The translations under genes and the position numbers were made by a program. Positions 23,985 to 32,718 of a stretch of DNA of 37,787 nt are shown here, one piece after another. Position 1 is the first letter of the stretch, and each line of letters opens with the position of its first letter. Below the pieces are notes generated by a model. It had not been told where the DNA came from. It was given only the letters and a program-made list of their open reading frames with translations, and did no database searches. The DNA is from Candidatus Zixiibacteriota bacterium (GTDB lineage Bacteria; Zixibacteria; MSB-5A5; GN15; FEB-12). The DNA lies in the NCBI GenBank assembly GCA_024278515.1, contig JAJRTA010000194.1, forward strand, positions 1-37,787, in the 5' to 3' direction.

Positions 23985-24179
23985 ATGAGTCTGGAAAACA
24001 TGGTAAGAATGCTGGCCGGATCGATGGTATTACTGTCGTTGCTTCTGTACTATCTGGTGTCGCCGTACTTTCTAATTCTTACGGCGTTCGTCGGCCTGAA
24101 CCTGCTGCAGTCCTCAGTAACAAAGTTCTGTCCGGCTGAAATAGCTTTTAAGAAGCTGTTCTTCAGCGGCGGGAAATAA
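23985..24179 (+). CDS. Small DUF2892/YgaP-TM-like inner membrane protein
   Basis: MSLENMVRMLAGSMVLLSLLLYYLVSPYFLILTAFVGLNLLQSSVTKFCPAEIAFKKL: two TM helices plus FCPAE motif. Confidence 0.85.
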   Translation: MSLENMVRMLAGSMVLLSLLLYYLVSPYFLILTAFVGLNLLQSSVTKFCPAEIAFKKLFFSGGK

Positions 24180-24185
24180 GAAAAA

Positions 24186-24217
24186 AGTGCGCGGAAAGTC
24201 CGGTGTTTCCGCGCACT
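24186..24217 (+). terminator. Strong hairpin, probable operon terminator
   Basis: AGTGCGCGGAAA-GTCCGGTG-TTTCCGCGCACT, perfect 12 bp stem 9 nt after the stop codon; no clean T-run. Confidence 0.55.
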
Positions 24218-24355
24218 GTGCAGCAAGAGGATCGGAATCAAGAAGCCTGATTCCTGCAAAGAAGTTTTTTTACGGTTCTGGTTGTCTTGCTTTTTTTCTC
24301 CCCCGTTAAGCGGGAGGCCGGGAGGTCATAGACCTCCCGCCTCTTGTCCGGTTTA

Positions 24356-25035
24356 CTGACGAACGAAACTCTGGTCGTTCAGCCCCCATTCGACACGTAT
24401 CAAGCCTGTCCCCAACAACACCCCCGCTTGACACAACCTGTTGCGCAGCTCCTGCATCTGAAGAACCGGTTTCCGTTTTGACGCCCCTTTTGGCAGCCCC
24501 CTTAACCGTGCTCTTTCGTCAAACCTCTCGTTCTTTCCCTATCGCACCTTAAAGCTGCTGTCTGTCATCAACCCGGACTGCTTAATTTGCGGCCAAAGCG
24601 GCAGATGAAAGGACCCGGGTGCAGTGCGGCAGCCGCTTTGAGCCATATTTGAAATACTCGCTGCACTGCATCTTCCGCTTCGGTTTGAAACTCGCACCGT
24701 TTGTGCAGAAAAAAAGAGGTGGGAGAGAGGGTTGCGGATAATTTTACTGAAGCCGGCCTCGCGGCTGCCCTCAGCATGGTACCCACAGACCCTGTACTCC
24801 CCCCTTCGCTTGACCGCCTGGCTCCCTTTCACCCCCTCACGGTCTAAACCTCGAAATCGCCGTCCCTGGCGCCCGGTGTTAATCCTGTTTCCGGTGCGGC
24901 TGGTTTTCCGCGATCCCCCTGATACAGGATTACCTCTGCCATACGCAACTTTGGCCCCCGTGATCTCACAACCGGAAACAGCCCCCTTAAACGGATTTGT
25001 AAACAGGTCTGTCAGCCCCCGCGAACAGCCTGACA
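24356..25035 (-). other. Candidate large structured RNA or decayed ORF (unassigned island)
   Basis: No recognisable protein; several perfect 7-11 bp inverted repeats, some interlocking; G5 tracts confined to the minus strand. Confidence 0.35.
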
Positions 25036-25433
25036 AATCTATTCCTTTCTGATGCTCAGAGTTGGCAAGTCGATATGTCTTCACTATTTCCGGCATCCTC
25101 TCTCCGGTTGCACGATACGGCGATTAGTTTTCTGGTCTTTTGACACCAGTCTCTAATCTCTTTTTTCGACAGAAGCCCGCCATACTGAACAAGGAAATAC
25201 CAGTGACAGAATGGCTATAGAACATAGCCATTTATTGAACCGCCCGTTGAAAGATATGAAGAAAGAACAGCCGGTTGAAAAACCTGTCAAACTCTATAAT
25301 ATCAGTATCTGTACCCACAAATATGATTTATTCTTTTTTCCCCTCTTGAGCGGGGCGGCTTCCCGAAAGGGGAGACGGGGTGTGTTGAGGTGCTGCGCAC
25401 GTGGACATACGTAACGCACTAACAACTGTCTGG

Positions 25434-25628
25434 ATTCCGGGTCAAGGCCCGGAATGACGACAATGAGGATGCTGCTGGTATCATTACAGGATTACAGGTA
25501 GCGATACTCCGTCTTGCCGGACCTGATCCGGCATCCGGTTCTATTTCGTGTTATGCAGAACCTGATTCAGCATCCGGAAAACAAATGTACATGGATTCCG
25601 GTGCAGACCTGGAACGACATTTATTGGA
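25434..25628. repeat. Mosaic palindromic intergenic repeat, copy A
   Basis: ATTCCGGG-tcaagg-CCCGGAAT (25434-25455), TGCCGGA-cctga-TCCGGCA (25515-25533), then 62 nt block 25535-25596 matching 32638-32699 at 56/62. Confidence 0.85.
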
Positions 25629-25703
25629 AGGACTCTCATAAAACAAAATATGGTTTTATTAACAAGTCCTGAAGGGTGAGGTCTATGGTGCACATACACA
25701 AAA

Positions 25704-25733
25704 GGCGTCACCCGGGGTTAGCCGAGTGACGCC
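25704..25733 (-). terminator. Terminator of the ribonucleotide reductase gene
   Basis: GGCGTCAC...GTGACGCC stem followed by TTTT on the minus strand. Confidence 0.7.
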
Positions 25734-25827: not shown

Positions 25828-29499
<3,672 letters not shown>

Positions 29500-29657
29500 G
29501 CCGTACCTCCTGTACAAGAGCAACAAAATACCAGGACGGGCCGTTCCCTGGCCGGATAGTAATCCTGATAATCCGTTGCTGCTTGATAAATTACATGAAA
29601 TCCAGTGTATTTCTCGAGCAAACTACCCGCAATTCATTACTTTATTTAATCTGCGGG

Positions 29658-30256: not shown

Positions 30257-30509
30257 CATTGGTGTAAACTGCATCTCCCACATATCCGAACAAATCACGA
30301 TTCATTGCTACATTAGTTGAGTTTTATATGTTTGTGTCGCCTGATTCTGTCGGCAATTTTATCTGGTTGCAGGCTCCGGTCAGGTATGACTTTTGTTAGT
30401 CCATTTTCACGGTCTGGACAATCACCTCCCTACGGCACTGCAATGCTCGAGCTTTCCACCGGTGGGGTATCAGCTTGACTTCACTTTCCGATTCCTGCAT
30501 CATGGCCGG

Positions 30510-32564
30510 ATGAAAAAACCTCGTGATAGTCTTTTCGGGTTGCGCCCCGGTTATATCTCGCTACCGGCTCTTTACGCTCTGGCCATGGCCGGAGTACTGA
30601 CATTGTTTTTCGAGCTGTGGCGGTTTATCCTGATGGTAAGGTTATGGGACCGGGCATCGGAACTGCCGGGATGGGTCTTGTTTAAGTCTTTTCTGGTCGG
30701 TGCGCGATTTGATCTGGTAATTGCCTGTTACCTGACAGTTTTTCTGTATGTTCTCTCGATCATTCCCGGTCTGGAGATAACGCGTCGAAAGTGGACGCTT
30801 AGTTTTCATACCGGGCTGTTGTCGGTTGTGGCGGCGGTTATTTTTCTCATGCATATGGTCGATCTGGAGTTCTATTCGTTTTTCAACTCCCGCCTGAACG
30901 GGGTGGCTCTCACCTGGCGTGAAACTCCGGGGATGGCTCTGTCGATGATCTGGGACATGTTCCCGGTGGTTTGGTACCTGCTTATGACGGCTGTCATTCT
31001 GATCGGGTTCATTTTGATCATGGGTCGAATCAGGCGATGGTTGTTCGACGGACGAGCCGGCTCATCGATCCGGGTAAACCTGATCTATCTGCCGGTGGTT
31101 ACTGCGATCCTGTTTGTCGGAGCGCGGGGACGGCTGGCCGACAAGTCGCCCATCCGCAGCGGCGTAGCCTATTTTTCCGAATATGATCTGGCCAACCAGA
31201 TGGCGCTGAATCCCGCCTTTACTTTCTGGCGCGATGCGATCTATGACGCCCGCGACAAGGAGCAGCTTGCTAAGATGATGGCCACGGTGCAATCGACCGG
31301 CGGGGAGCCTTTGGTGCGGCGTCTTCTCGGAATGCCGGACAGCCTGATTAACCGGACCGATCAGAAAATCTGCCGCCCGGTGAGATTTGAAAAACAGAAT
31401 GAAGACCCGCCCAACGTGATGATCGTGATGATGGAGTCATTCGGCAGTACGAAACTGGGCGCGCTGGACAACCGTTTTCCCTGGGACCTCTCTCCCTGTT
31501 TTGATTCGCTGGTTGAGGAAGGTATTCTTTTCACCAATTTCTATTCAGCCGGGATGCACACATACAGTGGTGTCTTCAGCACTCTTACCGGCAGTCCCCA
31601 CCAGTTCACCGAACTGGTGATGAAGCAGGTACCGGGGCAGACACATTTTCGTTCGCTGGCCGCCGTGCTAAAGGATTACGGTTACAACACCTGGTTTTTT
31701 ACCACTCACGACCCGCATTTTGACAATATGCAGGGGTTCGCCATGTCCAACGGCATCAACCGGGTGGTTTCCTCGCTCGATTTCGACCCTGATGAATGGA
31801 TAGGGACCTGGGGTGTTCCGGATCATGTGCTGTTTGATCGTGTCGTCGAGGTGCTTGGGAACGAAAACCATGACCGGTGGTTCGCGATGCTGCTTTCCAC
31901 CTCCAACCATGGCCCCTGGAAAGTTCCCGATGTGCCGTTTGCCAGGATAGCTGATACCGCCGACAAAGCCGACGAGCTGAACGCTTTCAAATACTCGGAC
32001 TGGTCGCTGGGCCGCCTGGTCAGACGGATGCAGAACGATCCGGCTTTCTCCAACACACTGATTTTCATAACCGCCGACAACGGCACTCCGTACGGCCAGA
32101 CACTGGATTTGGATCTTACCTATTTCCAGATTCCGCTTTTGATACTTGATACCGATAATCGTATCCCGGCCGGTCTGCGAGTCGACCGGCTGGGGGGTCA
32201 GCTTGATATTCTCGCTACCGTGATGGGGCAGGTGCGTCTCGATTACGACAACTACAGTTTCGGACATGATCTGCTGGACAGCAGTCTTGAAATCACCGAC
32301 TACGCCCAGTTTTCTGAGTGGTACCGGGTTGGTTATATCGAAGGCGACTACTATGCCATCTATCGATTACGGGGTCAGCAAGGCTCCTGTTACCGTCTCG
32401 ATGATTTAACCGATGATCTGGTCGTTTCAAATCCGGCCGTAGCAACTCCTCTGATAGACAAGGCGGCCGCTATATTCCGTACCGGGTGGGAAAACATGAG
32501 ACGCCCTGTTCCGGATCATTCACTTGTTGATGGTCACACGGTTAATGTTCTGTCGGGTCCTTAA
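30510..32564 (+). CDS. LTA synthase-like membrane sulfatase (phosphoglycerol transferase family)
   Basis: Five N-terminal TM helices then sulfatase domain: NVMIVMMESFGSTKLGALD, FYSAGMHTYSGVFSTLTG, LIFITADNGTPYG. Start trimmed to MKKPRD. Confidence 0.9.
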   Translation: MKKPRDSLFGLRPGYISLPALYALAMAGVLTLFFELWRFILMVRLWDRASELPGWVLFKSFLVGARFDLVIACYLTVFLYVLSIIPGLEITRRKWTLSFHTGLLSVVAAVIFLMHMVDLEFYSFFNSRLNGVALTWRETPGMALSMIWDMFPVVWYLLMTAVILIGFILIMGRIRRWLFDGRAGSSIRVNLIYLPVVTAILFVGARGRLADKSPIRSGVAYFSEYDLANQMALNPAFTFWRDAIYDARDKEQLAKMMATVQSTGGEPLVRRLLGMPDSLINRTDQKICRPVRFEKQNEDPPNVMIVMMESFGSTKLGALDNRFPWDLSPCFDSLVEEGILFTNFYSAGMHTYSGVFSTLTGSPHQFTELVMKQVPGQTHFRSLAAVLKDYGYNTWFFTTHDPHFDNMQGFAMSNGINRVVSSLDFDPDEWIGTWGVPDHVLFDRVVEVLGNENHDRWFAMLLSTSNHGPWKVPDVPFARIADTADKADELNAFKYSDWSLGRLVRRMQNDPAFSNTLIFITADNGTPYGQTLDLDLTYFQIPLLILDTDNRIPAGLRVDRLGGQLDILATVMGQVRLDYDNYSFGHDLLDSSLEITDYAQFSEWYRVGYIEGDYYAIYRLRGQQGSCYRLDDLTDDLVVSNPAVATPLIDKAAAIFRTGWENMRRPVPDHSLVDGHTVNVLSGP

Positions 32565-32614: not shown

Positions 32615-32718
32615 GGCTTCCGGGTCAGACCCGGAAGCCGGTTCTATTTCGCGTCATGCTGAACTTGATTCAGCATCCAGAAAACAAATGTGCATGGATC
32701 GGAATGATATTCATTGGA
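32615..32718. repeat. Mosaic palindromic intergenic repeat, copy B
   Basis: GGCTTCCGGG-tcaga-CCCGGAAGCC (32615-32639), ATGCTGAA-cttga-TTCAGCAT (32656-32676); block 32638-32699 matches copy A. Confidence 0.85.

Follow-up and report, generated by a model that had tools for sequence, protein, structure and literature searches.

A probable kilobase-sized structured noncoding RNA known so far from a single genus of Candidatus Zixiibacteriota

Several large, ornate RNAs of unsettled function have been described in bacteria. Many GOLLD RNAs exceed 800 nt, and these untranslated, multi-helix molecules have no known function (PMC12286853); they are carried by phages and prophages, frequently close to tRNA islands. 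ROOL is likewise a large, standalone, ornate RNA whose function is unknown (PMC12286853), with a length of ~600 nt. OLE is a large chromosomal RNA with long conserved unpaired stretches and an intricate secondary structure (PMC12286853, PMC9723947), and all three, OLE, ROOL, and GOLLD, form homo-oligomers (PMC12286853). The untranslated RNAs of the CsrB/RsmZ sort, of which CsrB is about one third as long as the element described here, are sponges for the protein CsrA.

The locus considered here lies in a stretch of 37,787 nt from a Candidatus Zixiibacteriota genome, hereafter called the window. Its conserved noncoding unit occupies positions 24179-25236 on the minus strand, ~1,058 nt (about 1.06 kb). 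In the absence of transcript data, this interval is likely to be the gene of a genuine, functional, structured noncoding RNA, a level of confidence that does not extend to its mechanism, and the product is probably a free-standing, untranslated RNA of ~1.06 kb. Comparison among genomes supports this reading by showing full-length homology in six genomes, an absence of coding constraint, slow evolution with very few indels, conservation of a fold that has many helices and carries compensatory changes, conservation of the terminator, a single copy per genome, and neighborhoods that differ between sub-clades.

Like GOLLD, the element is large, untranslated, and multi-helix, and its function is unknown. 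However, GOLLD's phage or prophage setting near tRNAs is not met: the neighbors are ordinary chromosomal genes, no tRNA or tmRNA was found in the window, and the pattern of the element is absent from viral contigs. It shares with ROOL a large size, a standalone and ornate character, and an unknown function, but it is chromosomal and longer. Like OLE, it is chromosomal and combines long conserved unpaired stretches with an intricate structure, yet no partner gene is common to all of its copies. It differs from each of the three in lacking an Rfam match: a search across the window with Rfam 15 (including GOLLD, ROOL, OLE, and raiA) gave none at gathering thresholds, and relaxing the limit to E values up to 5 gave just weak chance matches to unrelated families. 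A missing RNase P RNA (RF00010, one per genome) was also considered and ruled out, since rnpB is present elsewhere in the genomes designated G000, G001, and G002. The likeness to CsrB/RsmZ consists of an untranslated RNA, a repeated G-containing motif in loops, and a CsrA gene in the genome; in contrast to those RNAs, the repeated motif is GGGGGCUG, and GGA is not enriched. By analogy, then, the element most resembles OLE, ROOL, and GOLLD in being large, ornately structured, and free-standing and in having invariant unpaired motifs, while by Rfam it is a member of none. It does satisfy the loose description of a large ornate bacterial noncoding RNA (long, untranslated, with a conserved complex secondary structure). 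A literature search on noncoding RNA in Zixibacteria found nothing relevant.

A sequence-only reading of the window had proposed that a gene-free island at 24356-25035 encodes, on its G-rich minus strand, a large structured RNA not recognizable as GOLLD, ROOL, or OLE. The proposal of such an RNA has held, as has its failure to match these families; the extent was too short, the conserved unit being ~180 nt longer at one end and ~200 nt longer at the other. Two mechanical ORFs cross the island, 24539-25096 on the minus strand (185 aa) and 24732-25052 on the plus strand (106 aa). Pfam gave no match for either, and coding tests described below speak against the minus-strand frame as a gene. The reported strand bias is real: the plus strand of 24356-25035 has nine runs of five or more C and no such run of G (two of the reported run positions were off by one and fall at 24383 and 24799). 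In dinucleotide shuffles, C5 runs number 2.9 +/- 1.4, and one of 500 shuffles reaches nine. Perfect 8-mer inverted repeats within 100 nt also number nine, versus 1.2 +/- 1.4 in shuffles, none of 200 of which reaches that count. Three outcomes that would have refuted the proposal, namely protein-like conservation, an absence of homologues, and stems without covariation, were tested, and none was borne out; compensatory changes were seen in stems.

The region was first recovered by a DNA search of 61 related genomes, with matches in the same genus, and a search of genome contigs gave matches limited to the same five members of that genus. Homologues of about 1.05-1.09 kb (1,063-1,091 nt) are present in one copy each in six of the seven genomes of the genus (G000, G001, G002, G003, G005, and G006), the seventh being G004. 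With a covariance model built on the 3' domain, each of the seven genomes yields one copy, and 75 further genomes of the order yield no convincing match, a single one in G047 (E 0.095) being taken as chance. A model of the core recovers the element in six of these seven genomes and in none of the 128 others of the phylum that it was run on. Within the genomes searched, the element is therefore known so far from a single genus. The evidence base amounts to only about three effective lineages, drawn from MAG assemblies, with no RNA data.

Among four close relatives, the element has diverged by 0.033-0.095 changes per site, compared with a dS of 0.18-0.25 for the adjacent luxR gene, and no more than 5 of ~1,160 alignment columns contain gaps. 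Given this low divergence and scarcity of indels relative to luxR dS, together with the failed coding tests, the element is under constraint without coding.

Folding of an alignment of G000, G002, G001, and G005 against conservation-preserving column shuffles gives a minus-strand consensus energy of -471 versus -373 +/- 11 (z -8.8). The plus strand likewise folds well (z -6.4), whereas luxR coding DNA, aligned as a control at comparable length and divergence, gives z -1.5 whichever strand is folded. Pairs with P above 0.8 number 158; 95.6% of their cells are paired, and both sides have changed in 38 of them, as compared with 13.3 +/- 2.8 when the 3' letters are dealt anew and 5-11 when partners are slid. 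These last controls are lenient because the fold was chosen on the same alignment. When the column shuffles are themselves refolded, they give 25.5 +/- 8.5 doubly changed pairs, so that the observed 38 is only mildly above chance; with all rows required to pair, the figures are 27 versus 14.9 +/- 5.4. In an independent test, structures predicted from single genomes (P above 0.9) keep pairing in 45-73% of the doubly changed pairs in other genomes, versus 29-44% for slid partners. The conserved structure as a whole is firm, and individual helices are firm solely where they are given as parts below.

The strand and 3' end of the RNA are very likely fixed, even without RNA data, by a rho-independent terminator (24181-24217, minus strand) in which a 12-bp stem (24217-24186) is followed by a U tract and four outer pairs have changed on both sides over the seven genomes. 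Minus-strand transcription is supported by this stem and U tract, by the compensatory changes in the stem, and by the lower folding energy and larger z of that strand. No sigma-70-like promoter was recognized on the minus strand; consequently, the 5' end, placed at the first conserved hairpin (25209-25233), which covaries, is inferred. That the RNA is transcribed as its own unit is also an inference, made without a recognized promoter or RNA data.

From 5' to 3' on the minus strand, the RNA would begin with this hairpin, AAAUGGCUAU/AUAGCCAUUC (in the G001 clade, GAUUGGCUAU/GUAGCCAAUC), in which 2 pairs have changed on both sides and which is present in G004 too. Two stacked helices (24996-25038), 25031-25038/24996-25003 and 25025-25030/25007-25012, have 5 doubly changed pairs and close an invariant loop, CGGGGGCUG, with a G5 tract at 25016-25020. 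A further helix, 24933-24937/24874-24878, has 3 pairs changed on both sides; it covaries in all, and in G000 and G002 it is the outer part of a longer helix that is extended by 24924-24931/24881-24888. Within its span (24874-24937) lies a conserved small GCGG/CCGC hairpin (24896-24911), and beyond it are an invariant block, GCCAGGGACGGC (24861-24873), evident from the alignments and recognizable in G004, and a GACCGU/GCGGUC hairpin (24812-24844) in which all cells are paired. The longest helix (24717-24805), AGGGGGGAG.../...CUCUCUCCCACCU, comprises 22 pairs in the filtered structure and is capped by a hairpin at 24750-24771; 10 pairs of this region have changed on both sides in all, and covariance model R2 is among the evidence for it. 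The helix 24632-24644/24590-24602 (24590-24644) has 2 such pairs. It is followed by a conserved, mostly unpaired segment, RAAWRGGGGGYUGARC (24380-24396), whose G5 tract at 24383-24387 is kept in all six homologues, and by a G/C-rich hairpin (24316-24342), AGGCGGGAGG/CCUCCCGGCC (in relatives, GGUGGGGAGG/CCUCCCCACC). Before the terminator lie a 3' hairpin, GAAUCAG/UUGAUUC (24235-24253), and the unpaired AUCCUCUUGCUGCAC (24218-24232), which is identical in six genomes, shares its final 12 nt with G004, and is unique in the genome.

The sequence-only reading had listed six perfect inverted repeats as candidate stems. All six repeats are present at the positions it gave, and their fates as helices differ. 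The pairing 24881-24888/24924-24931 held, being kept in G000 and G002 within the longer helix 24874-24888/24924-24937, and 24595-24602/24632-24639 held, with compensatory changes, as part of the helix 24590-24602/24632-24644. TTTGACG/CGTCAAA (24477-24483/24517-24523) is partly kept, and 25010-25015/25030-25035 is displaced, the real pairing being 25007-25012/25025-25030 inside 24996-25003/25031-25038. The remaining two, 24885-24895/24971-24981 and 24620-24627/24663-24670, failed, as they are unpaired in relatives. Thus, two further suggestions are unsupported: that the first of these and 24881-24888/24924-24931 are mutually exclusive, as in a switch, and that the second interlocks with 24595-24602/24632-24639 as a pseudoknot or alternative fold.

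In the window, the island is flanked by a small ORF at ~23986-24179 (plus strand), which we take by eye to be DUF2892-like without confirmation by Pfam, and by the class II ribonucleotide reductase gene (25828-29526, minus strand). The small ORF adjoins the 3' end of the RNA in convergent orientation, and similar DNA is found in many family members without the RNA. A terminator-like hairpin of 12 pairs followed by TTTTGTG (25704-25733, minus strand) lies between the reductase gene and the RNA, and therefore read-through from that gene is unlikely. Also adjoining the RNA, and no part of it, is a dispersed repeat, CTGGATTCCGGGTCAAGGCCCGGAATGACG..., at 25421-25640, which recurs at 32620-32699 and in dozens more copies elsewhere in that genome, which are 72-94% identical and in some cases arranged in tandem.

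The setting in G002 is the same as that in the window, with the element downstream of MMPL, LolA-like, and DUF1302-like genes and the small ORF. In G001, G003, G005, and G006, a PAS/GAF-LuxR regulator gene of the same strand lies ~60-70 nt upstream of the element instead. The neighbors differ by sub-clade: luxR is upstream in the latter four, and the DUF1302-like gene and small ORF are next to the element in G000 and G002, whose luxR orthologue is located elsewhere without an element beside it. In G005, a gene on the same strand (L045 3078-4484, minus), which we take by eye to be HDOD-like, starts ~60 nt past the RNA terminator. In a tree of the LuxR protein, G004 falls outside the rest, G000 groups with G002, and the other four form a group (moderate support). 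Given this grouping and the luxR genes of G000 and G002 that lack an element, it is likely that the slot behind luxR is the older position and that the locus changed in the G000/G002 line, where the element was nevertheless retained at full length. Because no neighbor gene is common to all copies, a cis role is unlikely, and the RNA probably acts in trans, an inference from its differing neighbors.

G004, the earliest-branching relative, retains in the same order the 5' hairpin, a recognizable GCCAGGGACGGC block, a G-tract segment, and the 3' domain. The remainder has diverged, a few hundred additional nt precede the 3' domain, and at the expected place the core model scores merely 9.8 bits. 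The slot from luxR to the conserved terminator is occupied by a CheW-like reading frame (Pfam E 1.9e-5; L056 1294-2483 on contig G004:C203); it is split across two frames with a 4-nt overlap, and its GC by codon position is unusually flat for that genome, which may point to an unusual origin or to decay. This single sequence does not discriminate between a CheW gene ancestral to the RNA and one inserted in G004. Directly downstream of the slot in G004 is a sulfatase-like gene (L056 2704-4704), and a sulfatase-family protein gene (30393-32564, plus strand) lies ~5 kb from the RNA in the window; this could be a trace of older synteny.

As to what the RNA does, the mechanism we favor, by analogy and with the balance still tilted slightly against it, is a structural role like that of OLE, GOLLD, or ROOL, either as an RNA alone or as the scaffold of an RNP. 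In this model, the RNA would form a large and stable particle, which may or may not include protein and may be oligomeric, as known for OLE, ROOL, and GOLLD, and the CGGGGGCUG loop, the GGGGGYUGARC segment, and AUCCUCUUGCUGCAC beside the terminator would be displayed unpaired as binding surfaces. Both the oligomeric or RNP state and the binding are inferred.

The alternative that survives best, although it is unlikely, holds that the 3' domain is the functional part, a processed sRNA of ~90 nt in which the unpaired AUCCUCUUGCUGCAC serves as seed, and that the remainder is a precursor or carrier. The 3' domain is indeed the best conserved part and the one most clearly common to G004. A hairpin, an unpaired C/U-rich stretch, and a terminator are the usual layout of an sRNA, and the domain has this layout. 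However, sites complementary to AUCCUCUUGCUGCAC (no more than 1 mismatch in 13) are no commoner in the seven genomes than those of a reversed control pattern, and the conservation of the other 950 nt would be unexplained.

Very unlikely is a second alternative, that the element is the remnant of the 3' part of a former luxR-cheW operon, which has degenerated into noncoding DNA and in which the terminator alone is still under selection. In its favor, the genome outside the other six in the LuxR tree has a CheW-like ORF filling the luxR-terminator slot, and four other genomes also carry the element behind luxR. Against it, the whole 1.06 kb evolves at ~1/5 to 1/2 of the luxR synonymous rate with almost no indels, the full length survived the locus change, and structure is conserved along the entire length. 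A decayed gene may suit the origin of the RNA, but not its present state.

Also very unlikely is that the minus-strand ORF (185-289 codons) is a fast-evolving protein gene whose RNA structure is incidental. This frame is open for 194-289 codons in all six homologues, longer than in nearly all shuffles, and coding tests were therefore applied; in addition, G001 and G002 keep the same phase along the frame. However, substitutions fall 1:1:1 over codon positions (e.g., 26/20/22 and 35/24/27), ~25% of changed codons are synonymous, a share no different from that of the other five frames, GC shows no variation by codon position of the kind seen in neighboring genes, and the frame is shifted in parts of G000. 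With neither a synonymous excess nor a Pfam match, the frame was rejected as a gene, which in any case would leave a folding z of -8.8, versus -1.5 for a real gene, unexplained. Finally, a CsrA sponge of the CsrB/RsmZ sort is all but excluded, for although each of the five genus genomes tested has a CsrA gene and G-rich motifs are placed in loops, CsrA binding needs GGA or AnGGA, both of which are at or below shuffled counts, and the repeated motif is GGGGGCUG.

A bolder reading is no more than possible: the element would belong to a new class of giant structured RNAs (over 1 kb) in bacteria, restricted to a single genus of Zixiibacteriota. It would act as a catalyst or assemble into a large particle, either an oligomer or an RNP, both inferred, and it would have arisen recently in the slot following a PAS-LuxR regulator gene, with what was left of a CheW-like gene as its possible source, prior to the change of locus in one sub-clade. 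Besides rRNA and self-splicing introns, few bacterial structured RNAs are near 1 kb, and the function of several is unsettled. The element is longer than OLE, ROOL, and most GOLLD RNAs, and it sits among ordinary chromosomal genes. With its defined 3' end, secondary-structure model, and conserved unpaired motifs, it is open to direct testing. Moreover, an RNA of one genus, with a basal relative that has a CheW-related frame in the same slot, is young enough for its origin to be traced.
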